Below, in pieces: positions 10,927 through 26,077 of a stretch of 64,000 nucleotides of DNA. Source of the stretch: Microvirga terrae (GTDB taxonomy: Bacteria > Pseudomonadota > Alphaproteobacteria > Rhizobiales > Beijerinckiaceae); contig NZ_CP102845.1 of assembly GCF_013307435.2 (NCBI RefSeq), positions 1-64,000 of the forward strand, read 5' to 3'. The position numbers were made by a program, and so were the translations under genes. A model generated the notes under the pieces. That model had not been told where the DNA came from and searched no databases. It saw only the letters and a list, made by a program, of their open reading frames with translations. Each line of letters opens with the position of its first letter. Position 1 is the stretch's first letter.

Positions 10927-11437
10927 CGCCTAGCCCAGCGCACCGCTCCGAACCGATCCGGTCGGGATCATGGAAATCCATTATGATCACGCCCCACAAT
11001 CGTGCTTGACTGTTTGGGACAAGCGCTTGGCATTTGTGGCCAGAGAATTTCACCGGACTCCTGCCTGTGCCGACGGGACGCCCCTGACCGCTGCGTAGAG
11101 AAAGACTGTGGGATCCCACGTCACAAAACGCATTCTCTGAGCGCTTCGCGAGACACCTGCGGGGGGCGACCTCTCGACCTGGCCGATCTGCGCAAGAATG
11201 CTCACCCTTGCGGAACGTGGGATCGGCAACGGAAGTCTGGCTCGATCAAAGAAGCCATTGGCCCATGACAGCAAGGCGGGTGAAGGCAATTCCCGCTAGA
11301 ACGGATCCCGTCGGTCCGTAGGGGCAATCCCGGTGCCGAACCCGCCCACTCGCAAGGAGTGCCACCAAGAGCGCCATCGGGTGCGCGGGATTTCTTTCCA
11401 TCACCAATTTATTCCCTCTGACTGTTTCACGCCGTCG
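10927..11437. other. Intergenic region with one direct-repeat operator
   Basis: About 510 bp without a supportable gene. It contains the 39-bp element at 11004-11042. Open frames on either strand here lack ribosome-binding sites and known motifs. Confidence 0.6.
11004..11042 (+). promoter_or_regulatory. Site A of a six-copy direct-repeat operator (AraC-type candidate)
   Basis: Pattern: GCTTGAC, 5 nt, GGGACA, 5 nt, TTGGCA, 4 nt, then TGGCCA in place of GGGACA. It lies 78 bp upstream of the broken minus-strand gene starting at 10926. Five similar copies exist at 16784, 20030, 20188, 23101 and 25792. Confidence 0.65.
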
Positions 11438-11705
11438 ATGCCGCGCTTCTACTTTGATCTTTCCCTGCGCGCATTTTTTCGACCGCGATGAGTTTGGCTC
11501 CGGGATCGAAAGCCTCGATGTGGAAGAGACCGGGGATAGGCGCAGTGCAGGCGAACTGACGCGGGATCGGCTGCTCCAGTCGCAGATTACAACTCCCGAG
11601 ACCGTTCGGGCCGAGGTCAGGAATGAGTATCGAAAATCGGTCATCGTGGTGACTGTTTCCATCCACGTCGGGCGGGCTGGGCTGACACCGCCGCTCATCA
11701 GGTGA
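11438..11705 (+). pseudogene. DUF6894 family protein, frameshifted at a T6 run
   Basis: The first frame reads MPRFYFDLSLRAFF, the standard DUF6894 N-terminus, then stops at 11489-11491. The family continues in a second frame as DRDEFGSGIESLDVEE, with the conserved closing strand AEVRNEYRKSVIVVTVSIHV. Removing one T from the six at 11474-11479 joins the frames into one protein of about 88 aa. Intact relatives are at 19697-19966 and 38432-38701. DUF6894 function is unknown. The defect is in a homopolymer, so a sequencing error is possible. Confidence 0.78.
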
Positions 11706-11839
11706 GGGGCGATCCCGTCTGTCCAGCAAGTCGGGCGTCATCAAACGGGTTGCTGGCTTATGACCGCAAGCCGGCGGGCTGTTGCCACCATTAACACGCC
11801 AGCAACATCGCCCAGTGCCATAAGAATCTCGGGAGACCT

Positions 11840-12046
11840 ATGAAGACAACAGCAGAATATCACCAACACGCGGAGGAGTGTCGGCTTCTTGCCCGGCACT
11901 TGCCCGAAGGGGAGCAGCGTAATCAGCTTTTGGAGATGGCGAGAACCTGGGAAAGCCTCGCCGAGACCCGGAAGGCGTTGATCCGCCGTCATCCCGAACT
12001 CAATACGGAGAAGGCCTCAACCACGGCACAGTCTGAGGCGGAATAG
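11840..12046 (+). CDS. Small conserved hypothetical protein
   Basis: A 68-aa, highly charged, helical protein (MKTTAEYHQHAEECRLLARH) with no signal peptide or membrane segment. GGGAG lies 4 nt before the ATG. Short proteins starting with a similar Tyr-x-x-x-Ala-x-x-Cys-Arg pattern are common in Hyphomicrobiales, without a known function. It stands alone, 134 bp after the broken DUF6894 gene. Confidence 0.75.
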   Translation: MKTTAEYHQHAEECRLLARHLPEGEQRNQLLEMARTWESLAETRKALIRRHPELNTEKASTTAQSEAE

Positions 12047-12090
12047 CGGGCCCGCATGAAAGCAACGGACCTGCAAGAATGGGCAACCCG

Positions 12091-12441
12091 TCAATGAAGG
12101 GATCGCAAGCGGCGCATGGCATCCTGGACGAACGCGACGGCAGCAGCCAATTCGTCTTCGTCGAAGTCGTGGCACCCGATGCTGTCGATGACGGCACCGG
12201 TCCCCAATGCGCGAAGCTCCAGCCAGAACGGCGGCATTCCATCCAGATCGGCCCCGTAAGCCTCCGTCAGGCTGAACTCAAGATGGCCGATACGTGCAAG
12301 CATCACTGTCTGGGCTGCCGCTCCGTAGTCTGCCCCGACGGCGAGCTGGACGTAGGCCCGGATGAGCTTCTGCTCGATCCAGTCGGGGCACAACTCGGAA
12401 TACGCGGCATGACCCGCGAGCACTGCACGCGACTGTGACAT
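12091..12441 (-). CDS. Hypothetical protein
   Basis: A 116-aa soluble, acidic protein starting MSQSRAVLAGHAAYSELCPD. The start was chosen because GGAG lies 6 nt upstream; an in-frame ATG at 12453 and longer forms lack such a site. I recognise no domain. It lies divergent from the AraC-type regulator at 12646 and convergent with the small gene ending at 12046. Confidence 0.6.
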   Translation of the reverse strand: MSQSRAVLAGHAAYSELCPDWIEQKLIRAYVQLAVGADYGAAAQTVMLARIGHLEFSLTEAYGADLDGMPPFWLELRALGTGAVIDSIGCHDFDEDELAAAVAFVQDAMRRLRSLH

Positions 12442-12645
12442 TCCACTCTCCATTGGGTTCACGACATCCAGCGGCCCAAATGGACACTTACAAGCCGTCT
12501 GCTGCGGCAGCTTTTCCCGCCTGGAATGTCGATGGCCGGCCTTATAGCCGAGACTGAGCTTCGATGGATTGCCCTCGTGGGACATAGGCTTGTTGAATCG
12601 GGCCGCCGGTGTACGATCAGGGCGGCGGATTCTGCGAGGGGGCCC

Positions 12646-13704
12646 GTGTCATCATCCGTGAGAACCCATGGGGCGGTGCCGCCCAGCGCCGGTGGTGTCA
12701 TGGCCCGCCTTGCGGTGGCCCACCTAATCACCGCGGGCGTTGATCCGGCTCTCCTCCTCCGGCAGGCGGGAATCGCGCTCGCGCAGATTGACGATACCGA
12801 GGCCGAGATCGCCGCCGACGCGCAGGTCACGCTCCTCAATCTGGCTGCAGATGCACTCCGGGATGACCTGCTCGGATTCCATCTCGCCCGGGAGTTCGAA
12901 CTGCGGCAGGTCGGGCTGCTCTATTACGTGCTCGCCTCGTCCGAGGTGCTTGGCGATGCCTTGGCTCGGGTCGAACGCTACAGCACCATCGCCAATGAAA
13001 GTCTTGCGCTGAGCCGGCTCCCGGCGCGCGAGGTGGGAATCGGCTTCAGGTCTGTCGGCGTCCCACGGCGCGCCGACCGCCATCAGGTGGAGTTCTGGAT
13101 CACGGCGCTCGTACGGGTCTGTCGGCATCTGACAGGCTGTGATCTCAAAGTGTCTCGAATCGCCATGGTCCATCCCCGCTGTGCTGCATCGACTGCCATC
13201 GAAGACTATCTCCAATGCTCAATAGCGTTCGGAGCCGGAGCGGACGAGATCGTGTTCGCATCCGATGCACCCCGGCTTCCGCTGATAAACGCGGACCCTT
13301 ACCTGAACAAGGTTCTGGTCCGCCACTGCGAGGAGGCGCTGGCCCAGCATGCGCGGCCTGTCGGACGTCTCCAGGCTCGTGTTGAGAACGCCATCGCGCC
13401 ATTGTTGCCGCATGGTCGAGCACGTGTGGACGAGGTCGCGCGGAGCCTCGGCATGAGCCGGCGGACGCTGGCGCGACATCTGGCGACGGAGGGCCTGACC
13501 TACACCGAAATCCTGGAAAGGACTCGGAGGGACATGGCCCAGCATTACCTCAAGGATCCGGACCTGCCGATCTCACGCATTGCCTGGTTGCTCGGCTATC
13601 AGGAAGCCGGTGCCTTCACGAACTCCTTCAGGCGTTGGACGGGCGTCACCCCGACCCGGATGCGTACTCGCCATCAGAGCGATGTAACGGGAGGCCGACA
13701 GTGA
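12646..13704 (+). CDS. AraC family transcriptional regulator with arabinose-binding-like N-domain
   Basis: A transcription regulator of about 352 aa. The N-terminal half resembles the Arabinose_bd ligand domain found in OruR/ArgR-like AraC proteins. The C-terminal HTH_18 double helix-turn-helix includes VDEVARSLGMSRRTLARHLA and ISRIAWLLGYQEAGAFTNSF, followed by RRWTGVTPTRMR. GTG 12646 is chosen because GAGGGGG precedes it, though the spacing is short; ATG 12700 is an alternative. With the protein at 21132 it is a candidate to bind the direct-repeat sites in this region. Ligand unknown. Confidence 0.88.
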   Translation: MSSSVRTHGAVPPSAGGVMARLAVAHLITAGVDPALLLRQAGIALAQIDDTEAEIAADAQVTLLNLAADALRDDLLGFHLAREFELRQVGLLYYVLASSEVLGDALARVERYSTIANESLALSRLPAREVGIGFRSVGVPRRADRHQVEFWITALVRVCRHLTGCDLKVSRIAMVHPRCAASTAIEDYLQCSIAFGAGADEIVFASDAPRLPLINADPYLNKVLVRHCEEALAQHARPVGRLQARVENAIAPLLPHGRARVDEVARSLGMSRRTLARHLATEGLTYTEILERTRRDMAQHYLKDPDLPISRIAWLLGYQEAGAFTNSFRRWTGVTPTRMRTRHQSDVTGGRQ

Positions 13705-14138
13705 CCGGTGAGCGGGCTATATGACAGTCGGAGTAGGGTCGAGCCTGTCATGTGAAAGGCCCAATCGCGGGCATCTCAGTAAATGTCTGCGAACACTGGT
13801 CGCCTGCCTCCTTTTCGTCTGAGACCTGGTCCGCTCAGAACGCATCAACACGATCATCGTCGGCGTCCGGGTCGTCGAATCCGAATTCATGGCAGCTCAG
13901 TCCCAGCCGAGTGGCCCGAATGTGGAAGAGAAAGAGACGCATGCGGCCTCTCCGTCTCCGTTCAAGCGCAAGACCATGCTCGTCGGCTGCGGTTGGATCA
14001 GGACGGAGGTTCATGGAAAGGCCGGTCATGGCGCCCGACGTTCTGGATGCGAGGGAAGTGGGACCGATGCCTGCCTTGAGATCGCCTGACTCGAAGGGTC
14101 AGCTTCCTTCAGAACAGTCAAAACGACACGGCGGGGAC
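13705..14138. other. Intergenic region with a DUF6894 relic
   Basis: About 430 bp between the AraC gene and the transglutaminase-like gene. The only recognisable content is the minus-strand DUF6894 fragment at 13835-13942. Plus-strand open frames lack family motifs. Confidence 0.55.
13835..13942 (-). pseudogene. Truncated DUF6894 protein fragment
   Basis: A 35-aa frame, MRLFLFHIRATRLGLSCHEF then GFDDPDADDDRVDAF, matches the start of the intact DUF6894 protein at 19697-19966 (MPRFFFHVRGAREGLSRDEL). It stops where the intact protein continues into its helix. The downstream sequence does not restore the conserved C-terminal strand in any frame I checked. A decayed copy is the simplest reading. 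Confidence 0.55.
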
Positions 14139-14801
14139 ATGCGGGCACCACTTCTCAGGCGGGCGAACGGTCGACCATGTCCTGGTCGCTGGTTTCATCC
14201 TGCGGCCTTGGCTATGGTTCTGCTGGTCAGCGGCGGGGCGAACGCTCAGACGGCTAGCACTCCCCTCAAGTCCGGTTTTCTCGCCACCAGGAGCCACGCC
14301 GTCATGCCGGTGCCAGGCTGGATTCGCTTCTGCAAGCACAGGCCGGACGAGTGCACGGTCGACCCTTCGGAACCGGCGAGGATCGCCCTGACGCCACAGG
14401 GCTGGGAGACGCTCACACGCATCAACCGCCAGGTGAATGCCGGCATCCGGCCGATCACCGATCAGGAGCACTGGGGGGTGGCGGATCGCTGGGACCTTGC
14501 CGAGGATGGCTATGGCGACTGCGAGGACTTCCAGCTCGTCAAGCGCAAGCGGCTCGTTGCGGCCGGGCTCTCCCGGCGAGCCCTTCGCATGGCGGCTGTG
14601 CTCGATCAGGGCGGCGCACCCCATGCGGTCCTGATGGTGCGCACCGATCTGGGCGACTTCGTCCTCGACAACAAGCATGACACCGTCTTGCCGTGGCGAC
14701 AGACCGGCTACGTCTTCCTGCAGCGTGAAGGCGGCACCGGATCGACCTGGGTTTCTCTTGGCGCAGCCTCCGCGTTACCGGTGAGAACCGCTGGCCGCTG
14801 A
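14139..14801 (+). CDS. Transglutaminase-like cysteine peptidase (BTLCP family)
   Basis: A 220-aa exported protein of the bacterial transglutaminase-like cysteine proteinase family (PF06035), periplasmic proteases related to LapG. A hydrophobic signal (LAMVLLVSGGANAQT) precedes the catalytic domain. Cys128 lies in GYGDCEDF and His180 in LDNKHD, consistent with the Cys-His-Asp triad. GGGGA lies just upstream of ATG 14139. There is no LapD-like partner nearby. It is convergent with the Gly-rich gene. Confidence 0.88.
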   Translation: MRAPLLRRANGRPCPGRWFHPAALAMVLLVSGGANAQTASTPLKSGFLATRSHAVMPVPGWIRFCKHRPDECTVDPSEPARIALTPQGWETLTRINRQVNAGIRPITDQEHWGVADRWDLAEDGYGDCEDFQLVKRKRLVAAGLSRRALRMAAVLDQGGAPHAVLMVRTDLGDFVLDNKHDTVLPWRQTGYVFLQREGGTGSTWVSLGAASALPVRTAGR

Positions 14802-14871
14802 CGTCGCAGGCTCCCAGGCGCTACTCGGCCGCAGCCGCCGCCGGGCGCGATCAGAGGAACAGACCGTGGCG

Positions 14872-15570
14872 TCAGTATCCCGCCACGACCGACCCGCGGG
14901 CTCGTCCTCCCGCCGTGCGGCACGAGCATCCCGTCCCGACGGGGGCCGAGTTCGTCAGGGCACAGGTCCGGACTGTCGTCGCACAATAGCCCCCGACCGC
15001 TGACGAGACTGGCGTCTGGTTCGTGGCGTACGGGTAATTGTAGTAAGGATAGTTGTAGTACGGATACGTGGCCGCCGCCCCGATCACTGCGCCTGTGGCC
15101 AGACCCAGTCCCCATCCGCCGTAGTAGTTCCCGTAATATGGATAATTGCCGCCGTAGTAGGGGTACCGCCCGCGATAGTAGGGATAGCGCCCGCCGTAGT
15201 TCGGATAGCGTCCGCGCCAATCTCCTCGGTTGCCGAAGCGGTTGTCGAAGCGTCCCGGGTTGCTGATCGCCGCCTGCCGGAAGTCGCCGCGTCCGGGCCG
15301 GGCTGCGACCGCAGCACCGCGGAAGTTGCCGCCCATTCCAACGCGAGAACCGCCCATGCCGCCGCGCGGAATGTACATTCTGGAGCCGCCACCAAAACCG
15401 CCGCCACGGAAGCTGCCGCCACCCCGCATGCCCCCACCGCCGAAGCCGCCCCCGCCGATGCGGGCGCCTCCACCACCGCGGCCGCCGCGCTGCGCATCGG
15501 CCACATCCGGAATCAGGAGGGTGCCTGCTGCCAGAACACCAAGAGCCAGAAGAAGCTTGTTCATCGACAT
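14872..15570 (-). CDS. Gly/Tyr-rich secreted protein
   Basis: A 232-aa protein with signal peptide MSMNKLLLALGVLAAGTLLI and cleavage near VADA-Q, then Gly-rich repeats (GGGGFGGGGMRGGG), an Arg/Tyr-rich block (YRGRYPYYGGNYPYYG), a short hydrophobic segment (LATGAVIGAAATYPYY), and a C-terminus with three Cys (YCATTVRTCAL, GTGCSC). Function unknown; surface or envelope location inferred from export and composition. A shortened, frameshifted paralogue lies at 10727-10926. Confidence 0.8.
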   Translation of the reverse strand: MSMNKLLLALGVLAAGTLLIPDVADAQRGGRGGGGARIGGGGFGGGGMRGGGSFRGGGFGGGSRMYIPRGGMGGSRVGMGGNFRGAAVAARPGRGDFRQAAISNPGRFDNRFGNRGDWRGRYPNYGGRYPYYRGRYPYYGGNYPYYGNYYGGWGLGLATGAVIGAAATYPYYNYPYYNYPYATNQTPVSSAVGGYCATTVRTCALTNSAPVGTGCSCRTAGGRARGSVVAGY

Positions 15571-15799
15571 CCTCCCCTACGGGACTGGGATATAGATCAA
15601 CTCGACACAAAGTAGATGGTTGCGGGGAGAGCTCCTCTGATCCGCACTGGCATCGCCTCACCGATGCTGGGCGCTCCCCTGTCCGGCTCAGCGAAACGTC
15701 TCTTTCGGGATATGCCGGACGGATTACAGGGAAGCCTAAGATCAAGGATCAATTGTTGCAGAGTTTCTAAGCGAACTCAGTTATAGTCTCCTGCCGAGG

Positions 15800-16669
15800 A
15801 TGACCCACCTCTGGGAGGCCTTCATGATGACGATGCCTGCGCTCATGGCGGACGAGCTCGGAAGGCGCATCGCGAGCGACTTCCGCCGCCTGTTCGGGTC
15901 GGCCCATCAGGACAAGGCCGAGCGACTTGACAGTGCAGCCCGGATGGCCCTGGAATGCATCGGTAAGAGCGACGCCCTCTATCACAACGTCGAACACACC
16001 TTCCTCGTCACCCTCGTCGGGAGGGACATCCTCCATGGCCGAATGCTGACCGAACGCCTGGAGCCGGATGACTACTCACATCTCATCGTCGCTTGCCTGT
16101 TGCATGACATCGGCTATGTCCGCGGCATTCTGAAAGGCGACCGCAATGACCGGTTTGTGGTCGACGCGAGCGGGGCGACGGTAACCCTGCCGCGCGGGGC
16201 ATCGGATGCGGCACTTGCCCCCTATCATGTCGATCGCTCCAAGCTTTTCGTCATGGATCGCCTGACGGGCTCGCCCCTGCTCGATGCCGAAAGAGTGGCC
16301 CGGGCAATCGAACTCACACGCTTTCCGACACCGAACACCACCGCGGATGGGCACGAGGACCGGGAGGGACGGCTCGTCCAAGCTGCAGATCTAATCGGCC
16401 AGCTTGGCGATCCTCTCTACCTGAAGAAGGCCAATGCCCTGTTCCATGAATTTGAAGAGATTGGGGTCAACTGCCAACTCGGCTATGCCTCACCGGCTGA
16501 CCTAGTGGAGCGCTTCCCCGATTTCTACTGGAACAGCGTCTCACCGCACCTGGAACATGCGATCACCTACCTGAATGTGACGGCAGCAGGCCGGCAGTGG
16601 ATTGCTAATCTGCATAGCCACGTGTTCTGCGCCCAGCACGCCTTCGCTCTCATGGGGCCGCAGCGTTGA
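15800..16669 (+). CDS. HD domain-containing metal-dependent phosphohydrolase
   Basis: A 289-aa cytosolic protein with HD-superfamily metal ligands: His62 and His66 in YHNVEHTF and the His102-Asp103 pair in CLLHDIGYV. Such enzymes hydrolyse phosphoesters of nucleotides or second messengers; substrate unknown. The start at 15800 could be replaced by ATG 15824 or 15827. No partner gene is adjacent; the next gene is ppk2 after 285 bp. Confidence 0.83.
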   Translation: MTHLWEAFMMTMPALMADELGRRIASDFRRLFGSAHQDKAERLDSAARMALECIGKSDALYHNVEHTFLVTLVGRDILHGRMLTERLEPDDYSHLIVACLLHDIGYVRGILKGDRNDRFVVDASGATVTLPRGASDAALAPYHVDRSKLFVMDRLTGSPLLDAERVARAIELTRFPTPNTTADGHEDREGRLVQAADLIGQLGDPLYLKKANALFHEFEEIGVNCQLGYASPADLVERFPDFYWNSVSPHLEHAITYLNVTAAGRQWIANLHSHVFCAQHAFALMGPQR

Positions 16670-16783
16670 GATCACGCTTCCTGGCTGACAATCAATGAAG
16701 CCTTCTGACACGCTGGCCACACCGTTACATGGTCCCCGGCGGCTATCCCGTCTTGAACGTTCCTGAAGCTGAAGGATGCGGGT

Positions 16784-16822
16784 TGTCCCAAAATGCCAAA
16801 CCGCCGTCACGTCTGGTCAAGC
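16784..16822 (-). promoter_or_regulatory. Site E of the direct-repeat operator, upstream of ppk2
   Basis: On the minus strand it reads GCTTGAC, 5 nt, GTGACG, 5 nt, TTGGCA, TTTT, GGGACA. The two GTCCC-type half-sites on the plus strand start 21 bp apart (16785 and 16806). It ends 133 bp before the ppk2 start, in the same gene-relative orientation as the other five sites. Confidence 0.7.
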
Positions 16823-16954
16823 GATGGTGCGCGTTTCCTGTATGCTGGCTGGCAATCGGCGTCTGCAACGAACCGGGAATTGCTCATTCTCCATTCCCGT
16901 GCGTCCAAATCTGCGGACCCGCGGGTCTATAACGCTAGGAACGCGGTGCGTGAC

Positions 16955-17800
16955 ATGAAGCGTCAAGAATCTCTGAAGAACGAGAGAGCCGACATTGGCA
17001 CGGCGATTACCTCTAATGTTCGAGAGAGGATGAAGCGGAAGGATTTCGAGAGCGAATTGAGAAAGCTCCAGGTCGAACTCGTGCGCCTGCAGACCTGGGT
17101 CAAGGCAACGGGAGCCAGGATCATTATCGTTTTCGAGGGCCGAGACACCGCCGGCAAGGGTGGCGTGATAAGCCGGATTACGCAGCGGGTGAGCCCGCGG
17201 GTGTTTCGGCACATCGCCCTGCCGGCGCCGACCGAGCGCGAGAAGAGTCAGCTCTACATCCAGCGCTACGTGGCGCAGTTCCCCGCCGCCGGCGAGATCG
17301 TGCTGTTCGACCGCTCGTGGTACAATCGAGCCGGAGTCGAGCGCGTCATGGGCTTCTGTACCGATGACGAGTACGAGCGCTTCATGCGCCTGGTGCCATC
17401 GTTCGAGCAGGAGATCGTCGATAACGGCATTATCCTGCTCAAGTACTTTCTCGACGTCAGCCAGGACGAGCAGCGCCGCCGCTTCGCCGACCGGATCGAG
17501 GATCCGATGAAGCATTGGAAGCTTAGCCCGATGGACACCGAGTCGGTGCGTCGCTGGTGGGATTACACGCTGGCCTACCAGGCCATGCTGCGCGCCACGG
17601 ACACTCCTGCCAATCCATGGTTCATTGTCCCGTCCGACGACAAGCGCCGCGCGCGGCTCAACCTGATCAGCCATCTGCTGAGACAAATCCCGTACAAGAA
17701 GGTCAAGGTCGAATTGCCGAAGGTGCCAAAGGCGGAACCGAGGCCAAAAGGGATCGAAGACCGGCTGCCGGCATCCCACATCGTCCCGGCCCGATATTGA
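16955..17800 (+). CDS. ppk2: Polyphosphate kinase 2
   Basis: PPK2 moves phosphate between polyphosphate and nucleotides, usually making GTP or ATP from polyP. The 281-aa product has Walker A EGRDTAGKG (61-69), the lid and Walker B region DRSWYNRAGVERVMGF (119-134), and the conserved KYFLDVSQDEQRRRF and DPMKHWKLSPMD blocks. Length fits one-domain PPK2. ATG 16955 gives the usual N-terminus; the frame is open further upstream across site E. The SulP gene follows after 31 bp, suggesting an operon. Confidence 0.93.
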   Translation: MKRQESLKNERADIGTAITSNVRERMKRKDFESELRKLQVELVRLQTWVKATGARIIIVFEGRDTAGKGGVISRITQRVSPRVFRHIALPAPTEREKSQLYIQRYVAQFPAAGEIVLFDRSWYNRAGVERVMGFCTDDEYERFMRLVPSFEQEIVDNGIILLKYFLDVSQDEQRRRFADRIEDPMKHWKLSPMDTESVRRWWDYTLAYQAMLRATDTPANPWFIVPSDDKRRARLNLISHLLRQIPYKKVKVELPKVPKAEPRPKGIEDRLPASHIVPARY

Positions 17801-17831: not shown

Positions 17832-19667
17832 ATGCCCGGCACGCACCCAGTCGATCCGCTTCCCCCGAACCGGATGGAGGCTGCGACGGTGCCGCCTGCG
17901 CGCGGGGGCAATCCGATGGTTGGCCAGGAGGCTCTCAGCCCGGGCGACCGGGAAGGAACGTCGGTCGCCCGCGGGATCGGCCTTGAGGCCAGATGGCTGC
18001 GCTGGTTACCAGGGCTCAGCACCCTCCTCCGGTACCAAGCCGCATGGTTTCGCCATGATGTCTTGGCCGGACTGGTGCTCGCGACCATGCTTGTCCCCGT
18101 CGGGATCGCCTATGCCGTGGCCTCCGGCCTGCCGGGCATCTGCGGCCTCTACGCCACGATTGTCCCCCTCTTGGTCTATGCCGTGTTCGGGCCGAGCCGG
18201 ATCCTCGTCCTCGGCCCGGATTCGGCCCTTGCGGCAGTCATCCTCGGCATCGTGTTGCCGCTGTCCGGCGGGGATCCCCAGCGCGCCGTCGCCCTGGGCG
18301 GGATGATGGCCCTCGTGTCGGGGACGGTCCTGATCCTGGCCGGGCTTGGACGCCTCGGCTTCGTGACGGAACTCCTGTCGAAGCCGATCCGCTACGGCTA
18401 CATGAATGGCATCGCCTTGACGGTCCTGATCAGTCAGATCCCCAAGCTCTTCGGCTTCTCGGTCGAGAGCACGGGACCTTTGCGCGAACTATGGTCCATC
18501 GGAGGAGCCATCCTGGCCGGCAGGATGAACTGGGTGGCCCTTGCGGTCGGCCTGGGAACACTGGCCACCATCCTGCTGCTGCGGGGAAGCCGACGTGTAC
18601 CCGGCATCCTGGTCGCCGTCGTCGGTGCTGCCGTCCTTGTCGGCGTGTTCGACCTCGCGGAGCGCCACAACGTCTCGATACTCGGCTCGCTGCCGGAGGG
18701 CCTGCCACGCTTCACCGTTCCCTGGATCGGGGTCGGCGACATCGTTCCTGTGCTCATCGGGGGATGCGCCGTCGCCATGGTGTCGTTCGCCGACACCAGT
18801 GTGCTCTCCCGGGCCTACGCCGCAAGGACCCGCACCATGGTCGATCCCAACCAGGAGATGGTGGGGCTCGGAGCCGCCAATCTCGCCACCGGGTTCTTTC
18901 AGGGCTTTCCGATCAGCAGCAGCAGTTCGCGCACGCCTGTAGCCGAAGCCGCCGGGGCCCGTACGCAATTGACCGGCATCGTCGGCGCACTCGCCATCTG
19001 TCTGCTGCTGCTGGTGGCGCCCGATCTTCTGCGCAACCTTCCGACCTCCGCCCTGGCTGCCGTCGTCATCGCGTCGGCCATCGGGCTGTTCGAGGTGGCC
19101 GACCTCAGGCGGATCTACCGCATCCAGCGTTGGGAATTCTGGCTGTCGATCGCCTGCTTCGCGGGTGTCGCGGCGTTCGGCGCCATTCCGGGGATTGGTC
19201 TAGCGATCGTGATTGCCATCATCGAGTTCCTGTGGGATGGGTGGCGCCCCTACTCCGCCGTTCTGGGACGTCCGACCGGCGTTGAGGGCTATCATGACGT
19301 CACGCGCTATCCGGAGGCAGGCCGGATCCCAGGCCTGGTCCTGTTCCGCTGGGATGCACCCCTGTTCTTTGCCAACGCGGAGCTGTTCCGCGAACGCGTC
19401 CTTGCCGCCGTGGCGGAATCGCCAACGCCGGTGCGTTGCGTGGTGGTCGCGGCAGCTCCGGTCACGAGCGTCGACGTGACGGCGGCCGATGCCTTGACCG
19501 AACTTGATGAGGCGTTGCTGGCGCAGCGCATCGAGCTCCGGTTCGCTGAACTGAAGGATCCCGTCAAGGATAAGCTGCGGCGGTTCGGGCTGTTCGACCG
19601 GTTCGGCGAGACGCGGTTTTCGCCTACAATCGACGCGGCCGTGTCGCAATATCAGGAAGCGAGCTGA
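17832..19667 (+). CDS. SulP family inorganic anion transporter with STAS domain
   Basis: A 611-aa inner-membrane SulP/SLC26 transporter for sulfate, bicarbonate or a related anion. The membrane part (about 65-470) includes GLVLATMLVPVGIAYAVASG and the family signature region with FQGFPISSSSSRTPVAEAAG. A cytosolic STAS domain covers about 510-605 (RCVVVAAAPVTSVDVTAADA). It follows ppk2 closely. The N-terminal 50 residues are Pro-rich and may not all be translated; internal ATGs at 17874 and 17916 are alternatives. The substrate cannot be read from the sequence. Confidence 0.92.
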   Translation: MPGTHPVDPLPPNRMEAATVPPARGGNPMVGQEALSPGDREGTSVARGIGLEARWLRWLPGLSTLLRYQAAWFRHDVLAGLVLATMLVPVGIAYAVASGLPGICGLYATIVPLLVYAVFGPSRILVLGPDSALAAVILGIVLPLSGGDPQRAVALGGMMALVSGTVLILAGLGRLGFVTELLSKPIRYGYMNGIALTVLISQIPKLFGFSVESTGPLRELWSIGGAILAGRMNWVALAVGLGTLATILLLRGSRRVPGILVAVVGAAVLVGVFDLAERHNVSILGSLPEGLPRFTVPWIGVGDIVPVLIGGCAVAMVSFADTSVLSRAYAARTRTMVDPNQEMVGLGAANLATGFFQGFPISSSSSRTPVAEAAGARTQLTGIVGALAICLLLLVAPDLLRNLPTSALAAVVIASAIGLFEVADLRRIYRIQRWEFWLSIACFAGVAAFGAIPGIGLAIVIAIIEFLWDGWRPYSAVLGRPTGVEGYHDVTRYPEAGRIPGLVLFRWDAPLFFANAELFRERVLAAVAESPTPVRCVVVAAAPVTSVDVTAADALTELDEALLAQRIELRFAELKDPVKDKLRRFGLFDRFGETRFSPTIDAAVSQYQEAS

Positions 19668-19696
19668 CGAGGCCAGAGAATGCCTGGAGGGCGACC

Positions 19697-19966
19697 TCAC
19701 TGGCGAAACCGCTTGGTGCGCCGGTGCATTCGACGGCCGAAGGCTGTAGAGAACGGGAGGCTGAAGATCAGCTCGTCCGCAGCGTTCGCAACCTCAATGG
19801 TATAGTCGCACGGATGCTGACCGCGCAACGCGAAGACGCCCCTGATGTCGCGAGCCGCACAGAACGCCTCACGATAGGCAGTCTCCACGTCAGGAAAGTT
19901 GAGCCCGAGCTCGTCGCGGCTCAGTCCCTCGCGTGCACCCCTGACGTGGAAGAAGAAGCGAGGCAT
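19697..19966 (-). CDS. DUF6894 family protein (intact)
   Basis: An 89-aa protein starting MPRFFFHVRGAREGLSRDEL with the family closing strand YTIEVANAADELIFSLPF. The family is very common in Hyphomicrobiales and has no established function. The start follows the family; an ATG three codons earlier (19975) is possible. It is the intact reference for the relics at 11438 and 13835. Site B lies 64 bp upstream. Convergent with the SulP gene. Confidence 0.82.
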   Translation of the reverse strand: MPRFFFHVRGAREGLSRDELGLNFPDVETAYREAFCAARDIRGVFALRGQHPCDYTIEVANAADELIFSLPFSTAFGRRMHRRTKRFRQ

Positions 19967-20029
19967 AACACTCATCCAGTTCGCGCAGCATGAGGGAGCA
20001 CTCGATCATGATGTGCCTTCGGACTACGT

Positions 20030-20068
20030 GCTTGTCCGGTTGGGACAACCGCTTGGCATTTCGTGACC
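20030..20068 (+). promoter_or_regulatory. Site B of the direct-repeat operator, upstream of the DUF6894 gene
   Basis: Reads GCTTGTC, 5 nt, GGGACA, 5 nt, TTGGCA, TTTC, GTGACC. It lies 64 bp upstream of the minus-strand DUF6894 start. Site F lies 120 bp away in opposite orientation, facing the divergent LTXXQ gene. Confidence 0.68.
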
Positions 20069-20187
20069 CTGGCCTTCCGGGGCCTCGCGTATTGGAGCGC
20101 CTCCCGCAACCGGCTTGGTTTGCAGCCCGGGAGCTCTCCAAAGGCCACGGGTGGAACGCTGTTCGGGCAGGTTTCCGGCTTCGCCTG

Positions 20188-20226
20188 TGTCCCAAACTGC
20201 TAAAGGGAAGTCCCAAGCCGTCAAGC
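20188..20226 (-). promoter_or_regulatory. Site F of the direct-repeat operator, upstream of the LTXXQ gene
   Basis: On the minus strand it reads GCTTGAC, 5 nt, GGGACT, 5 nt, TTAGCA, GTTT, GGGACA. Half-sites are 21 bp apart. It ends 55 bp before the start of the LTXXQ protein at 20281, close enough to sit next to a -35 box. Confidence 0.7.
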
Positions 20227-20280
20227 AGGCTCCGATCCAGTCCTTAGGCTAACGGACGAGAGCATCATCAGGAGACCAAG

Positions 20281-20811
20281 ATGCGGAAGGAAATCATCAG
20301 CGTCGTCGCAGCCCTGTTCATTGGTGGCGCGCCCGCGGCCTATGCTCAGCAAGCCACCTCAGGCCCAGCCGGCACACCTGGCAGCGGACGGCTGAGCCAA
20401 GGCGATTTCAAAATGCTGACCGATATTCGGGTCGGAGTGATCAAGGCCGCACTGCAACTCACCCCGGAGCAGGAGAAACTCTGGCCCGCCGTGGAGGAGG
20501 CGATCCGCGCCAGGGCCGAGACACGCTATCGCCGGCTGGCCGCACTGGGGGAGCGCTTGGACCAGCCACGAGACATCGATCCGGTGCAACTCTATCGCCA
20601 GCGTGCCGACGTCCTGACGGATCGTGCGGCGGGCCTGAGGAAGCTTGCGGATGCCTGGCAGCCGCTCTACCAGAGCCTCACGCCGGACCAGAAGTCGCGG
20701 CTGCGTCTTGTGACGCTGCATGCGCTTGAAGGGCTCCGGACCGCCATGGAGAACCGCCGCATGGAGCCGGATGACGAGGAGGAAATCGAGCTTTGGGTTT
20801 TCCCTCACTAG
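20281..20811 (+). CDS. LTXXQ (Spy/CpxP-like) periplasmic protein
   Basis: A 176-aa protein with a signal peptide ending AAYA-Q and an LTXXQ motif (LQLTPEQEKLWPAVEEAIRA), then a second related motif, QSLTPDQKSRLRLVTLHALE. LTXXQ proteins include the periplasmic chaperone Spy and the stress modulator CpxP. The mature part is helical and charged. AGGAG lies 6 nt before the ATG. Site F is upstream and a small lipoprotein gene follows after 69 bp. Confidence 0.85.
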   Translation: MRKEIISVVAALFIGGAPAAYAQQATSGPAGTPGSGRLSQGDFKMLTDIRVGVIKAALQLTPEQEKLWPAVEEAIRARAETRYRRLAALGERLDQPRDIDPVQLYRQRADVLTDRAAGLRKLADAWQPLYQSLTPDQKSRLRLVTLHALEGLRTAMENRRMEPDDEEEIELWVFPH

Positions 20812-20880
20812 GTCACCCCAGGAAGGCACAGCTGTTCCAGTGAACTGCTTGGGTGTTCAAACCCAGATCAGGAAGATCCC

Positions 20881-21057
20881 ATGCGCACACTCATCGCCGC
20901 ATTCGCGGCAAGCGCTCTGATGACAGGTTGCGTGTCAAGCTCCGGGTCGGATGCGCAGCCGCCGAACTACGTCTCCTCCCAGGCGAGCCAAGCACCTGGA
21001 ATTCGCAACGACGCGTTCGGGGGCGCCGCAATGCCGATGCGAGGCCTGCCTCGCTGA
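20881..21057 (+). CDS. Small lipoprotein
   Basis: A 58-aa frame with a lipoprotein signal and lipobox LMTGC (Cys17), then VSSSGSDAQPPNYVSSQASQ. GGAAG lies 5 nt before the ATG. The stretch after the Cys, including QPPNYV, matches the lipoprotein at 26078-26257, so the two are probably paralogues. It follows the LTXXQ gene by 69 bp and is convergent with the AraC gene. Function unknown. Confidence 0.72.
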   Translation: MRTLIAAFAASALMTGCVSSSGSDAQPPNYVSSQASQAPGIRNDAFGGAAMPMRGLPR

Positions 21058-21131
21058 CGACCGCAGGCAAATCCGCACCGCTCGATCTCATCCTTCAGGC
21101 AGACGCAAGAAGGCTTGACAAGATCGGTACA

Positions 21132-22232
21132 CTACCCGGGTCGGCCGTTGCTTCGCCAGGCAGTCGGCGTTCGGCCCGACCAGCGGCGGAAGGCGCGGGT
21201 GAAAGCGCTGGCCTCTGAATAACCGAGCGCCGCCGCAATCTCGCCAAGTGGCACGTCGGTATCTGCCAACAATTGCCGGGCAATCTCGAAGCGGATCTCA
21301 TTGGCAATTGTCCTGTACCCCGATCCGCTGTCCCTCAAGCGCCGGCTCAAGGTGCGTCGATGCATCGCCAGCAGATCGGCCATGTCGCTGGCGGAGCAGC
21401 GCCGTTTCATGATCCGCGTGCGCAGCAAGCGCCGGATGTCATCCGGGAACTCGGATGCCGCATTGCCTCGCAGTCGCCGGATCTGCTCCTCCAGCATGCC
21501 GCGGAGCAGAGGATCGGCCCCCGCTACTTTTCGCTTCAGGTCCTTGGCCGGAAATACCAGGGTGGCGCCCTCCTGATTGAACCGGACGGGCGCCCGGAAA
21601 TGGCGCCGGTAGGATCCGGTATCGGCTGGGGCCGTGCGCGACAGAAGCACTTCCGTTGGGCGCCATTCAGCGCCGCACAGGGTGCGCATCGCATTGACCG
21701 ATACCGCCAGGGCTGCTTCGGTGATGTGTTCTGCGCTCGCGCCGTCGGGCTGGTACGCCGCGTAGGTGAGCATAGCCACGTCATCGGCAACGGTCAGCGA
21801 GGCAACCACGACCCGGTCCTGGACGCTCAGATTGGACACGAGCGAATCCAAGGCCCCGCTGACGGTCTCCGAATGCTGCATCAGTCGTCCGATCAGGTCC
21901 AGGGACAGGATGGTGGCCCGCTGGCCCACAAGCAGCCCGAAATGCGGACAGCGGGTTCTCGCCACGCACAGGGTATAGAGCCGGGCCAGGGCGGTGAACG
22001 CAACGACGCTCGTACCGTCCTCGAACAGGCGAGGGTCGAGCCCGGCCTCGTGGATCAGCGGATCGGGATCAATCCCGAAATCGCACAGGGTCGGGACAAT
22101 CTCTTTGCTGACTCCCAGATGGATGTACCCGGGCGCAAGCGTGCGCCGGGATATCGCATGAGCCAGCGCCGGAATCAGGATCGATTGCCCCGGACCACGA
22201 CCAACATCCTGTGAGATTCGTCCGTCGTCCAT
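21132..22232 (-). CDS. AraC family transcriptional regulator with arabinose-binding-like N-domain
   Basis: A 366-aa regulator of the same architecture as 12646-13704: an N-terminal Arabinose_bd-type ligand domain (about 30-215) and a C-terminal HTH_18 with SASDMADLLAMHRRTLSRRL and LGEIAAALGYSEASAFTRAF, ending RRWSGRTPTAW. It lies among the six direct-repeat sites (nearest 20188 and 23101), so it is a prime candidate to bind them; this is inference. No such site lies in its own 183-bp upstream gap. Its C-terminus closely matches the relic at 49505-49627. Confidence 0.9.
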   Translation of the reverse strand: MDDGRISQDVGRGPGQSILIPALAHAISRRTLAPGYIHLGVSKEIVPTLCDFGIDPDPLIHEAGLDPRLFEDGTSVVAFTALARLYTLCVARTRCPHFGLLVGQRATILSLDLIGRLMQHSETVSGALDSLVSNLSVQDRVVVASLTVADDVAMLTYAAYQPDGASAEHITEAALAVSVNAMRTLCGAEWRPTEVLLSRTAPADTGSYRRHFRAPVRFNQEGATLVFPAKDLKRKVAGADPLLRGMLEEQIRRLRGNAASEFPDDIRRLLRTRIMKRRCSASDMADLLAMHRRTLSRRLRDSGSGYRTIANEIRFEIARQLLADTDVPLGEIAAALGYSEASAFTRAFRRWSGRTPTAWRSNGRPG

Positions 22233-22415
22233 CGTCGCGCCCTCGTCAGGTTTCGAGCACCGGTCTCAGGTCTCTGCGGCGGGCGTCGTTGATTGGCGCG
22301 TACCGCATCCAGATTGGACAGGGATTGCTCCCTGGCCGGGTCGGCGGCCCACTTCAGGCTCATGCCGTGTCCATGATCGCGTAAAGAAAGATCCGCAGGC
22401 TCCACGCAGGGCTCC

Positions 22416-22976
22416 TCACCGAGGGCAGACGTCCCAGAAGCCTTGGGTGCGTTGAGAGTTGGTGTAGTACCAACAATAGCCGGCGGCCGGCGCCGGTGAG
22501 GTGGCATAGGTGGTTGCTGCCGCAGCCGTCACGAAGCCGAGGGCCGCGCCCGCGGCCACCGCAGCACCGGGTCGCCACCAGTAGGACGACGGTCGGTACC
22601 ATCCCCCGGCCGGCACGGGCGGCCGATAGCCTGGACGAACCGCGACGTTGCCCGCCGGGCCCCGCGCCACGGCGCCACCATATGCACCGCGGGCCGCCAC
22701 TCCGCCCTGGGGTCCACGGGCCACCGCTCCACGTGGGCCACGCGCTGCGGCTCCGCCCCGCGGGCCGCGGGCCGCCGCCCGTGCGTATTCCAAATCTCGT
22801 TTCTGAACGATTTCGGGCAGCGTGGATTCGGGCAACCTGGACGGCAGCTCTGTCCGTGAGCCGAACGACGGCAGAGTCATTACCCTTGTGGACGCCGATG
22901 CGAAGGCGGGAAGACCAATGATGAAAGCCAGTCCGATTGATCCAAGAGTGAGTTGTCCTGAGCACCTGTTGTGCAT
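22416..22976 (-). CDS. Exported protein with RGPxGG repeats
   Basis: A 186-aa protein with an N-terminal hydrophobic signal (IGLAFIIGLPAFASAS), a charged spacer, then repeats of the form ARGPRGGAAARGPRGAVARG (about 70-110), a hydrophobic Ala/Gly segment (GAAVAAGAALGFVTAAAATT), and a C-terminus YCWYYTNSQRTQGFWDVCPR. That Tyr/Trp/Cys end recurs in small exported proteins of Hyphomicrobiales. Function unknown. Site C lies 125 bp upstream. Confidence 0.78.
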   Translation of the reverse strand: MHNRCSGQLTLGSIGLAFIIGLPAFASASTRVMTLPSFGSRTELPSRLPESTLPEIVQKRDLEYARAAARGPRGGAAARGPRGAVARGPQGGVAARGAYGGAVARGPAGNVAVRPGYRPPVPAGGWYRPSSYWWRPGAAVAAGAALGFVTAAAATTYATSPAPAAGYCWYYTNSQRTQGFWDVCPR

Positions 22977-23100
22977 GCGCCACTCCTGTGAAGGCCCGAC
23001 GAAAGGCAGGTAGCGGTTCCGTCGCTAGCGGAGCAAGGGTTCGGGAAAGTTGTCATCCATGCTCCGTCTGAGACCAGCATCCTATCGGCGCGCATTCCGT

Positions 23101-23139
23101 GCTTGACACTTCCGGACAGGCACTTTGCAGTTTGGGACA
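23101..23139 (+). promoter_or_regulatory. Site C of the direct-repeat operator
   Basis: Reads GCTTGAC, ACTTC, CGGACA, 5 nt, TTTGCA, GTTT, GGGACA. It lies 125 bp upstream of the minus-strand exported protein starting at 22976. The remainder of the 293-bp gap 22977-23269 shows nothing else I can name. Confidence 0.7.
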
Positions 23140-23269
23140 CGCGGCGCATGCAAATGCACATCGTTCGACGATCGATCCACCTCTGGACGATGTGTTTTCC
23201 GGAGATGGATCATCGGCAGCATTGGGCCATACCCCTTGGTGACAATCGATGATCACCACTTGACTGCCG

Positions 23270-24298
23270 TCATCGGATAGGGGGCGCATAGAGCACACCG
23301 CCCATGCTCCAGAGCTGGTTCAGGCCGCGCGGGATACCGAGCCGCGAGTTCACGCCGAGATTGCGTTCGTAGATTTCGGCGTAATTGCCCGTCGCCCTGA
23401 CGGCGTGCAGCGCCCATGCATCGTCCAGCCCCAGCATCCGACCGAAGCCTCCTTCCAGGCCGGCGAAACGGCGTATGTCCGGCTTCTGCGATGCCCTTGC
23501 CTCAGCTGCATTCAGAGACGAAACGCCGAGTTCCTCCGCATTCACGAGCGCGAAATTCACCCACTTCACCAGCGTGAACCACGCGAAGTCGTCGGCTCGC
23601 GTCACCGGCCCAAGGGGCTCCTTCGAGACCACGTCAGGGAGGATCACGGCAGCGCCAGGCTGGGGAAGTTTCAGGCGCTCGGCATAGAGCGCCGATTGAT
23701 CCCGCGTCAGAACATTGCACTGGCCGGCCTGAAAGGCCGCGAGAGCCTCCGCGGCACTCGCAAATGCGCGCTCATCGTAGGTCATGGAGTTCGCGCGGAA
23801 GAAGTCGGCCAAGTTGAGCTGACTCGTCGTCCCGCTCTCCACGCACACCTTGGCGCGGTCGAGTTCCAGCGCCGAGGAGACCATGAGATCCCGCATCACC
23901 ATGAAGCCCTGGCCGTCATGATAGGTGATGCCCGCGAAAGCGAGGCCGAGGCCCGCCTCGCGCTCCAGGGTCCAGGTCGAGTTTCTGGACAGCAGGTCGA
24001 CCCGTCCCGCGCGCAATGCCTCGAACCGCTCGCTGGCCGATAACGGCACAAAGGCGACCTTCGATCTGTCGTCGAAAATTGCTCCCGCGACCGAACGGCA
24101 AAAGTCGACGTCGAAGCCGGACCAGTCACCCTGCTCGTTCCGGTCCGAGAATCCGGATAACCCTTCGCTCACGCCGCATTGAAGGACGCCGCGTTGCTTT
24201 ACGGTCTCGAGCGTCCCGGCAGCCCCGGAGGCCGCAGAGGCACAGGTCAGAGCGAGAGCTATGCCGGCAATGGCGTTGAGTTTGGCCGCGTTCAACAT
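23270..24298 (-). CDS. Amino-acid ABC transporter substrate-binding protein (AapJ-like)
   Basis: A 342-aa periplasmic binding protein of the family of general L-amino-acid receptors AapJ/BztA. A signal peptide (LNAIAGIALALTCASAASGA) precedes the mature start TLETVKQRGVLQCGVSEGL; later blocks DWSGFDVDFCRSVAGAIF and VDLLSRNSTWTLEREAGLGL fit the family. No permease or ATPase gene is adjacent, so it is an orphan receptor here. The start is uncertain: ATG 24319 is in frame. It follows the L,D-transpeptidase gene on the same strand after 64 bp. Confidence 0.9.
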   Translation of the reverse strand: MLNAAKLNAIAGIALALTCASAASGAAGTLETVKQRGVLQCGVSEGLSGFSDRNEQGDWSGFDVDFCRSVAGAIFDDRSKVAFVPLSASERFEALRAGRVDLLSRNSTWTLEREAGLGLAFAGITYHDGQGFMVMRDLMVSSALELDRAKVCVESGTTSQLNLADFFRANSMTYDERAFASAAEALAAFQAGQCNVLTRDQSALYAERLKLPQPGAAVILPDVVSKEPLGPVTRADDFAWFTLVKWVNFALVNAEELGVSSLNAAEARASQKPDIRRFAGLEGGFGRMLGLDDAWALHAVRATGNYAEIYERNLGVNSRLGIPRGLNQLWSMGGVLYAPPIR

Positions 24299-24362
24299 GA
24301 TCCTTGGTCTCCGTCGCATGATGCGTTCCGCTCCCGGAGCACAGGTCCGGGCGACTTGGGAG

Positions 24363-25007
24363 TCACAGGCTGGCCCCCTGACGGACCACGACCTTGGTGC
24401 CGAGCGGCACGCGCGCATAGAGGTCGATGACGTCGCCGTTAGCGAGCCGGAAGCAGCCCGACGAGATGGCATGGCCGATCGTCTCCGGCTGATTGGTGCC
24501 GTGGATGCGGAAGACCGTCGAGCCGAGATAGAGTGCGCGGGCCCCCATCGGATTGCCCGGGCCGCCGGCCATGAAGCGCGGGAGATAGGGCTGACGGGCG
24601 ATCATCTCCGGCGGTGGGCGCCAGTCGGGCCATTCGGCCTTGCGGCTGACGCGCACCAGGCCCGACCACTGGAAACCCTCGCGGCCGACGCCGATGCCAT
24701 AGCGGAGGGCGCGGTTGTTGCCCTGGACCAGATAGGCGAACCGCTCCGATGTATGAATGACGAGGGTTCCAGGTGCCTCATTCGAGCGGAAGAACACGAC
24801 CTGGCGGGCATAGGGCCCATCAGCGATGACGACCTCTTCCGTGGAAATGCGCCCCGGCTCGTCGCCGATCTCCAGCGTCTCCTGGATGACGGATTTCGGC
24901 AGAGCCTGCGCATCCGCTGCACCGGGCAGACAAACCGCCAGGGTAAGTCCGAATGCCAGCGCAAGCGCCGTACCCATTTGGACAATTCGGTCGTCGCATG
25001 TCCGCAT
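24363..25007 (-). CDS. L,D-transpeptidase (YkuD/ErfK family)
   Basis: A 214-aa exported enzyme that makes 3-3 peptidoglycan cross-links or attaches proteins to the wall. A signal peptide ends near GAADAQA. The YkuD motif is present: IHGTNQPETIGHAISSGCFR with catalytic Cys185 and His179. Start chosen from GGAGG 5 nt upstream of ATG 25007; an in-frame ATG at 25037 overlaps the stop of the upstream lipoprotein gene. It likely shares a transcript with that gene. Confidence 0.93.
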   Translation of the reverse strand: MRTCDDRIVQMGTALALAFGLTLAVCLPGAADAQALPKSVIQETLEIGDEPGRISTEEVVIADGPYARQVVFFRSNEAPGTLVIHTSERFAYLVQGNNRALRYGIGVGREGFQWSGLVRVSRKAEWPDWRPPPEMIARQPYLPRFMAGGPGNPMGARALYLGSTVFRIHGTNQPETIGHAISSGCFRLANGDVIDLYARVPLGTKVVVRQGASL

Positions 25008-25036
25008 CTGCTCCTCCAGGGATAAGGCTTTCACCA

Positions 25037-25594
25037 TCAGGCTCCGCAACGCACATACACGAAGGTTCCGTATCGCCGGTTCGCGTCCGGATCGACGAAG
25101 CGCATGGTCATGAGGCTGCTCGTACTCGAGAGGATCTCGCGATCCTGCGGATGGCCCGGCGGCGCCTCGAATCCGAGATAGGTCCGGCCGGCGGCGTCGC
25201 CTTTGAGGCGCAGTTCGTAGGGCTTTGGATCGTCCGCGACATGCATCATCACGCCATCGGTCGGGCCTTTCGCGATGGTGTAGGGCTGGCCACACTGAGC
25301 TCTCGCCTCCCGCTCCGTCCTGGGACGGTCCTTGTCGGCATGATACGACGCGATGCCCCACCGCCCGATCAGACGTTCGCGTGGGATGGAGGCGGAGGTC
25401 TCGACGGCAACGGGGGAAGGGGCCTCGCTCGTCGCGACGGTGCAGCCTGCTACGACGAGGGACGCGATAACCGCGAAGGCGAGCCCGGGAAAGACGCTCA
25501 GGCAAGGCCGCGCAGCCGGGGAGAGACAAGCCGACGCCAAGGTCCGCTCACAGTTCTCGATCGTCCTTGCGTCCCTAGCGCTGATCAGTTGCAC
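25037..25594 (-). CDS. Conserved lipoprotein of unknown function
   Basis: A 185-aa protein with a late lipobox (VIASLVVAGC, Cys51), preceded by an unusually long N-terminus, so the true start may be internal. The mature part has the conserved blocks IGRWGIASYHADKDRPRTE and GVMMHVADDPKPYELRLKG, which I have seen in uncharacterised Hyphomicrobiales lipoproteins. It precedes the L,D-transpeptidase, so a role at the cell wall is plausible but not shown. Site D lies 198 bp upstream. Confidence 0.78.
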   Translation of the reverse strand: MQLISARDARTIENCERTLASACLSPAARPCLSVFPGLAFAVIASLVVAGCTVATSEAPSPVAVETSASIPRERLIGRWGIASYHADKDRPRTEREARAQCGQPYTIAKGPTDGVMMHVADDPKPYELRLKGDAAGRTYLGFEAPPGHPQDREILSSTSSLMTMRFVDPDANRRYGTFVYVRCGA

Positions 25595-26077
25595 GTTCGG
25601 CTCCTGTACTTGCTGTCTGACACGTTATTTCGATGGCAATTATGGTCTCAGCCGAAAGATCGGGTTCTCCGTGCATGACCCTCAGCAGCAGGCCTAGCGG
25701 AAGTGACCTCGTCTGATGCTGGGTTCCCCTTGCCACGCCTGGTGCTTGTGCCGACCGGAGGCAAAGACCCTATGTGGGCTCGTACCGCTCCGCTTGACAC
25801 TTCGAGACGTTCGCTTAGCCATTTGGGACAGAAGGTGTCGCGCCACTGTGGCTTCCGGTCGGCTGGAAATCCGTTCAGCGCGCAGCCCGAGAGTTTGGGA
25901 TGAGGCAGCCCAGCACCATAACCTGTCTTCCGAACACAGCACCGCGCCGAGTTGCTCGGCCGGCCGTCGCGTCGCATCGCTATCGACCACCGATCCGAGG
26001 GATTCCACCAGTCTGGCGACGGTCAGATGCTCGAAGGCAATGGGGGCAGGACCTGCGACGAGGTCGGAGGAAGCGGC
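25595..26077. other. Intergenic region with site D
   Basis: About 480 bp with no gene I can support. Contains the operator-like element at 25792-25830. Open frames on both strands lack ribosome-binding sites and recognisable motifs. Confidence 0.6.
25792..25830 (+). promoter_or_regulatory. Site D of the direct-repeat operator
   Basis: Reads GCTTGAC, ACTTC, GAGACG, 5 nt, TTAGCC, ATTT, GGGACA. It lies 198 bp upstream of the minus-strand lipoprotein/L,D-transpeptidase operon, the longest spacing of the six. Confidence 0.65.

Follow-up and report, generated by a model that had tools for sequence, protein, structure and literature searches.

A 40-bp direct-repeat operator shared by most Microvirga genomes, probably part of a promoter module activated by the AraC-family protein AraC2

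MarA, SoxS, and Rob, regulators of the AraC/XylS family, illustrate that several related proteins may share one DNA box, and MarA consists of a solo DNA-binding domain. Published half-sites in the family are TGCA-N6-GGNTA for XylS and GCAC-N7-CAA for Rob, with the same 21-bp period and direction as the sites treated here, as given in the available excerpts of PMC4514859. The present analysis concerns positions 1 to 64,000 of the forward strand of contig NZ_CP102845.1 of Microvirga terrae (assembly GCF_013307435.2). This stretch, hereafter the window, carries eight copies of a 40-bp direct-repeat operator and two genes for AraC-family regulators, designated AraC1 and AraC2 (Table 1). The operators are best explained as parts of a class II activator-promoter module bound by AraC2, a reading with a probability of roughly 0.87; from sequence comparison we infer binding, activation, ligand gating, and feedback.

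The initial annotation listed six copies of a 39-bp element. All six are found in the sequence at the positions it gave and their core holds, but the conserved element is 40 bp long. Among 75 distinct sites of the genus, one extra base is conserved ahead of the earlier start (T in 51 of 75), and the information is at background level beyond these limits. On the strand of the gene served, opposite to the strand on which the site was first written, the consensus of 171 distinct sites is TGTCCC-n-AA-n-TGYCAAG-N4-TGTCCC-N5-GTCAAGCA. The half-site TGTCCC-N4-TGYCAAG, with the core TCCC-N7-CAA, is present twice in direct orientation with a period of 21 bp, as first described, which is the arrangement of class II AraC/XylS operators. 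A consensus common to all six sites was also proposed. With at most three mismatches it recovers five of them (0.00 expected from 100 shuffles), but the sixth, at 25792, diverges further and yet scores 45.7 bits by a weight matrix of 40 positions, trained on the 75 distinct genus sites with the window copies included. The matrix assigns 43.0-52.3 bits to the six original sites and adds two, at 47573(-) and 49370(+), which brings the window to eight. Across 46 stretches (940 kb), 196 matches reach at least 8 bits, or 192 without doubles from overlapping stretches; the same stretches read backwards contain none.

The element is widespread in the genus. R1, a sequence model trained on 30 sites from elsewhere than this genome, detects 19 sites at E<=0.01 in the 6.13-Mb genome to which the window belongs (Table 1). 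At the same threshold, 34 of 48 Microvirga genomes harbor 1-41 sites each and 14 harbor none, for a total of 567. A simpler pattern yields the same 34 genomes with sites and 14 without, and has a single match across all 48 genomes when read backwards. A stricter exact pattern applied to 84,980 species genomes returns 11 matching stretches, all from Microvirga, with the genome under study perhaps left out of that collection. The simpler pattern matches 14 of 249 genomes drawn from the order, including the present one, and several of these matches look like chance. Four genomes of one other genus of the family (G363, G409, G426, and G440) contain one weak match each, limited to model positions 1-29 or 1-30, which represents either a conserved single site or chance.

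Both AraC proteins were said to have the same architecture, which their domains confirm. AraC2 consists of an N-terminal arabinose-binding-type sensor domain (PF12625, E 1.4e-38) and a C-terminal helix-turn-helix domain (PF12833, E 5.5e-21, 75.1 bits against a cut-off of 33.6). The link that was drawn between these proteins and the sites is well supported by distribution for AraC2 but not for AraC1. Homologues of AraC2 (E<=1e-60) occur in exactly the 34 site-bearing genomes and in none of the 14 site-less ones; the chance that the same 14 genomes lack both is 1/C(48,14) = 2e-12 if the genomes are independent. A quick tree of gyrB from the 48 genomes requires 11 changes of the site trait, and well-supported branches force eight of these. 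Among independent pairs on this tree, AraC2 goes along with the sites in eight of eight (p 0.008; as the AraC2 and site vectors do not differ, a single vector was entered twice), and AraC1 in about two of eight. A site was present within 1.5 kb at 27 of 30 AraC2-family loci, the best locus from each of 30 of the 34 site-bearing genomes, versus four of 30 AraC1-family loci.

Genomes outside the genus extend this association. Among 199 genomes drawn from the family, AraC2 is found at 65-67% identity in five from two other genera (G308, G343, G373, G396, and G399). No other genome outside Microvirga has three or more sites, and some sites of these five face genes that by eye resemble ppk2, pta, and an exported family also present in Microvirga. 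The more distant genomes L151-L155 each have a PF12625-type AraC gene no more than 1.8 kb from a site (domain scans covered L151, L153, and L155). The L155 protein is nearer AraC2 (39%) than AraC1 (25%); the difference for L151-L154 (26-29% versus 25-26%) is too small to weigh. In L152, L153, and L154, which belong to another family of the order, the single site lies between the AraC gene and a divergent gene resembling a response regulator by eye, an arrangement that may be an earlier version of this switch. As judged from these co-occurrence and proximity data, the link between regulator and site is well supported, and the operators are probably read by AraC2 or a close paralogue.

A competing explanation is that AraC1 is the regulator, or that both AraC proteins bind. 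AraC1 shares the domain architecture, is located among the sites, and is present at no less than 51% identity in 12 genomes, each of which has sites. At E<=1e-60, however, it is present in 25 of the 48 genomes, four of which (G004, G010, G013, and G043) have no site, and it is absent from 13 of the 34 site-bearing genomes (22 of 34 at 51% identity). Together with the low locus and tree counts given above, these figures render AraC1 an improbable reader of the operators.

The sequence beyond the operator resembles a promoter that lacks one of its two elements. On the gene strand, a -10 box is found 17 bp past the operator: TANNNT begins at +18 in 85 of the 171 sites and at +19 in a further 21 (106 together), compared with 0-5 sites at each of the other offsets from +1 to +59. 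The looser NANNNT at a spacing of 16-18 bp is present at 164 of the 171 genus sites (background mean 17.6, largest 28) and at 20 of 20 sites of the genome under study (background 1.85). At the -35 place, 153 of 171 sites have the hexamer CAAGCA or CAAGCG, which is the end of the operator and not TTGACA, the -35 hexamer of RpoD promoters. If transcription starts ∼7 bp beyond the -10 box, as is usual, the operator would span about -69 to -30, the region that XylS and AraC occupy at the promoters they serve. Judged from the sequence, the geometry is that of a class II AraC/XylS activator, with the proximal half-site at the -35 place and the -10 box at a fixed spacing. The gene strand also has the box order of the family (box A upstream, box B at -35), which supports the initial interpretation as an AraC-type operator. 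A promoter running along the strand on which the site was first written, with TTGAC as the -35 element, was also considered and rejected, as the base table, inspected by eye, contains no TANNNT at the matching place.

Two further explanations bear on this layout. AraC2 might bind the sites and mainly repress, as the operator covers the -35 place and the bound protein could block RNA polymerase. There is, however, no consensus -35 hexamer to block, and direct repeats that end at -35 are the activator layout of the AraC/XylS family as far as the excerpted sources describe it; predominant repression is therefore unlikely. Alternatively, the element could be the extended promoter of an alternative sigma factor that needs no AraC protein. 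This would account for a -10-like box at a fixed distance that in the two other genera is often CATACT, unlike TANNNT, and the Pm promoter of the XylS system is, according to the title of one paper, transcribed with sigma32 or sigma38. Nevertheless, a 40-bp double repeat is much too long for a -35 element and displays the period and order of AraC-type operators, and a close AraC family both co-occurs with the element and adjoins it, which leaves a sigma factor acting alone a still more remote explanation.

The position of the sites relative to genes was assessed with a home-made gene caller that called 75% of the sequence coding. Of 174 distinct genus sites of at least 20 bits, 147 have a gene start within 400 bp behind the TTGAC end; within this distance, a start lies only behind the site in 85 cases, on both sides in 62, only ahead in five, and on neither side in 22. 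The common orientation to the gene described for the six original sites is thus general. Site midpoints fall inside a called gene in just five of the 174 cases, a distribution other than that of an element scattered regardless of gene starts. A dispersed or mobile repeat without regulatory role, which might be suspected from the clustering of the sites, their number of 1-41 per genome, and their presence on a plasmid-sized contig in one relative, is largely refuted by the sharp 40-bp limits, the bias of orientation, the avoidance of genes, the fixed spacing to the -10 box, and the strict co-occurrence with one regulator, and is the least credible of the alternatives.

The initial annotation placed the gene starts 55-198 bp from the sites. 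The observed distances are 54 bp for the LTXXQ gene, 63 bp for the DUF6894 gene, ∼123 bp for the RGPxGG gene (start 22976), and 197 bp for the lipoprotein gene, but the value for ppk2 depends on the start chosen, being 207 bp with the called start and 123 bp with that of its L114 counterpart. In 13 of 28 ppk2 loci of site-bearing genomes, the site lies 226-260 bp before the aligned start, and it is farther away in most others. The Gly-rich target, which was described as a broken gene, persists as a remnant only: its C-terminal piece matches at 10730-10840(-) with E 3e-7, but the N-terminal piece (10838-10873) comprises only 12 residues and has E 0.13.

Calling genes behind the sites yielded 144 targets, of which 141 were scanned with Pfam (the other three duplicate genes already counted, from overlapping stretches). 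Among the matches listed, which cover 25 of 41 families, the most frequent are LTXXQ (12), PPK2 (10), phosphotransacetylase (9), DUF6894 (8), solo HTH_18 (8), serine dehydratase (6), DUF2092 (4), and sulfatase-modifying factor (3); pyruvate formate-lyase, cytochrome oxidase subunit I, and others are single targets. A simple rule detects a hydrophobic N-terminus in 61 of the 144 targets, and many other targets are metabolic. The view of the regulon as one of envelope genes is hence too narrow, although envelope functions do recur, as do fermentation and polyphosphate functions. The candidate regulon extends across most Microvirga genomes. Serine dehydratase-like targets are recurrent (L111:16299-17945, L119:4196-5839, and similar genes) and display an apparent twin-arginine translocation (Tat) signal by eye, which is odd as the serine dehydratase family is cytoplasmic.

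The eight solo HTH_18 proteins, of 111-157 residues and termed mini-AraC here, are direct targets of the operator. They are 48-64% identical to the DNA-binding domain of AraC2 and have nearly the same two recognition helices, the helices being placed from knowledge of the AraC family. A copy with at least 69% identity to one of the eight is present in 25 of the 34 site-bearing genomes, and no match at E<=1e-35 is found in the 14 site-less genomes. In three of the 25 genomes the open frame exceeds 290 residues, hence the solo state is not proven for each. The genome under study harbors mini-AraC genes under an operator at C1:3175391-3175795 (L111) and C2:491532-491909 (L113), and the relative G020 carries several. 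According to the available excerpts of PMC5481539, XylS reduced to its C-terminal domain is reported to be as good an activator as the full-length protein; by analogy, mini-AraC may need no ligand to act on these operators.

In the proposed mechanism, each element would be an activator-dependent promoter module that reads TGTCCC-N4-TGYCAAG-N4-TGTCCC-N5-GTCAAGCA on the target strand, followed by 17 bp and a -10 box. AraC2 or a close paralogue would contribute two DNA-binding domains, one for each of the direct repeats with their 21-bp period. The repeat nearer the gene appears to take the place of the -35 hexamer and, as no consensus hexamer is present there, RNA polymerase would need the bound activator in the class II manner of XylS at Pm. 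The PF12625 sensor domain presumably gates activation through a small molecule. The predicted regulon comprises LTXXQ, DUF6894, PPK2, phosphotransacetylase, the serine dehydratase-like protein, small exported proteins, and mini-AraC, with possible feedback of the last on these sites. A more tentative extension, which we consider possible but would not favor, is that the one 40-bp module is read by a whole family of AraC2 paralogues (up to 11 per genome) whose signals converge on it, with mini-AraC as an amplifier or as a lock that keeps the response on without signal. No clear split into distinct operator subtypes for the divergent paralogues (51-54% identity) is apparent by eye among the matches listed. 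In L119, L131, and L132, an AraC2 paralogue is divergent from a gene for a bile-acid-type symporter (PF01758) with an operator between them; this symporter may carry the inducer.

Several observations weigh against an AraC2-bound activator module or limit its reach. Outside the genus, 28 genomes carry an AraC2 relative (E<=1e-35) and 21 of them have no site; one or two sites are present in two of the 23 whose only relative is distant. No site accompanies two relatives of 43-44% identity, and six non-genus genomes contain one or two model matches without any relative at this threshold. As sites are rare beside distant relatives, the link holds for close homologues only. Within the genus, three of the 30 AraC2-family loci have no site within 1.5 kb. 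The same is true of ppk2 in the site-bearing genomes G003, G041, and G044, and also in two site-less genomes, G010 and G043. The number of AraC2 copies correlates with that of sites (rho 0.72), but genome size explains the number of sites as well (rho 0.75), and the copy-number correlation, which therefore counts for little, was dropped as evidence. The genome under study has two paralogues of AraC2 (C1:3184388 and C2:492905). As up to 11 AraC2 paralogues are present in one genome, more than one of them may read a given site, and the weak association of AraC1 with site-bearing genomes makes a minor role for that protein possible. In the two other genera, strict TANNNT is found at +18 or +19 in just two of 18 sites, the -10 place being mostly CATACT, GATAAT, or GATCAT; NANNNT at 16-18 bp is found in 18 of 18 (background 1.6), a count that is not fully blind as the motif was loosened after the strict result. 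Finally, a class II position implies activation, with repression less likely.

The features of the window are listed in Table 1. The ppk2 gene and the SulP-type transporter gene that follows it probably form one operon. The RGPxGG gene and AraC2 are a possible operon, which would imply possible self-control of AraC2. Operator copy 8 is weak in the whole-genome model scan (E 0.45), and the next called gene start is 547 bp away (332 bp in L114). The window begins (1-7433) with genes that by eye resemble dnaA, dnaN, recF, and gyrB, and the operator cluster lies 11-25 kb from this probable replication origin. Conserved nearness to the origin was considered and rejected, as the clusters are far from gyrB in G026 and G033.

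Table 1. Operator copies and neighboring genes in the window, and operator sites in the whole genome (contigs C1 and C2)
Feature	Coordinates	Strand	Remarks
Gly-rich exported protein gene remnant	10730..10873	-	C-terminal piece clear, N-terminal piece weak
Operator copy 1	11003..11042	+	51.6 bits; faces Gly-rich gene remnant; minus-strand CATAAT 17 bp past TTGAC end
AraC1	12646..13704	+	Second AraC-family gene, same architecture as AraC2
Operator copy 2	16784..16823	-	44.2 bits; upstream of ppk2-sulP; -10-like TATGCT 17 bp beyond
ppk2	17030..17800	+	PF03976; start possibly earlier, ∼16946
SulP-type transporter gene	17832..19667	+	PF00916, STAS; next after ppk2
DUF6894 gene	19697..19975	-	PF21834
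Operator copy 3	20029..20068	+	43.0 bits; upstream of DUF6894 gene; -10-like CATGAT 18 bp beyond
Operator copy 4	20188..20227	-	50.1 bits; upstream of LTXXQ gene; -10-like TAGGCT 17 bp beyond
LTXXQ family protein gene	20281..20811	+	PF07813
AraC2	21132..22232	-	AraC-family regulator; PF12625 sensor domain and HTH_18
RGPxGG exported protein gene	22416..22976	-	183 bp upstream of AraC2, same strand
Operator copy 5	23100..23139	+	52.3 bits; upstream of RGPxGG gene; -10-like GATGCT 18 bp beyond
L,D-transpeptidase gene	24363..25037	-	YkuD, PF03734
Lipoprotein gene	25037..25594	-	Lipobox read by eye; first gene of presumed operon
Operator copy 6	25791..25830	+	45.7 bits; upstream of lipoprotein gene; -10-like TAGGGT 18 bp beyond
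Operator copy 7	47573..47612	-	29.5 bits; -10-like CATGAT 17 bp beyond; 239 bp before exported-protein gene
119-aa exported protein gene	start 47851		Downstream of operator copy 7
Operator copy 8	49370..49409	+	Weakest, 27.2 bits; -10-like TAGTCT 17 bp beyond
Whole-genome sites, C1	11-25 kb (six); 47.6 kb (one); 2180 kb (one); 3164 kb (three); 3175-3176 kb (three); 4813-4814 kb (two)		Model R1
Whole-genome sites, C2	491-493 kb (three)		Model R1

Literature searches returned no regulon of this kind for Microvirga among the matches listed, which were judged partly by title. A search on AraC-family direct repeats with TGTCCC had no match, and searches on QhpR with AraC, on the VirS operator, and on solo AraC domains returned nothing relevant. 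The analysis joins an unassigned AraC family and genes of envelope, fermentation, and polyphosphate functions into one candidate regulon for which a regulator, an operator, and a promoter layout can be named. With many paralogues and mini-AraC around one common operator, it lends itself to the question of how duplicated AraC sensors share or divide promoters.

By sequence, the closest solved full-length relative of AraC2 is VirS of Mycobacterium tuberculosis (PDB 8rcx; E 2.4e-22, residues 50-363), which is distant. The best NCBIfam match is QhpR (NF049968; 221.1 bits, residues 84-360), below the curated equivalog cut-off of 250 bits; AraC1 scores 198.4 bits on the same model, which does not separate the two proteins. 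Compared with the MarA/SoxS/Rob marbox, the operator has CAA of box B at the same N7 spacing as in Rob (GCAC-N7-CAA, in the excerpted source), but box A is TCCC here and GCAC in Rob. In contrast with the marbox, the site is a double direct repeat and its main regulator has a sensor domain. The nearest parallel in layout is XylS at Pm, where two half-sites in direct orientation likewise lie 21 bp apart beside the promoter, with box B on the RNA polymerase side and box A farther upstream, as described in the available excerpts of PMC5481539 and PMC4514859. The two differ in the half-site, which is TCCC-N7-CAA here and TGCA-N6-GGNTA in the XylS box as excerpted, and in reach, in that here one operator serves many promoters per genome.

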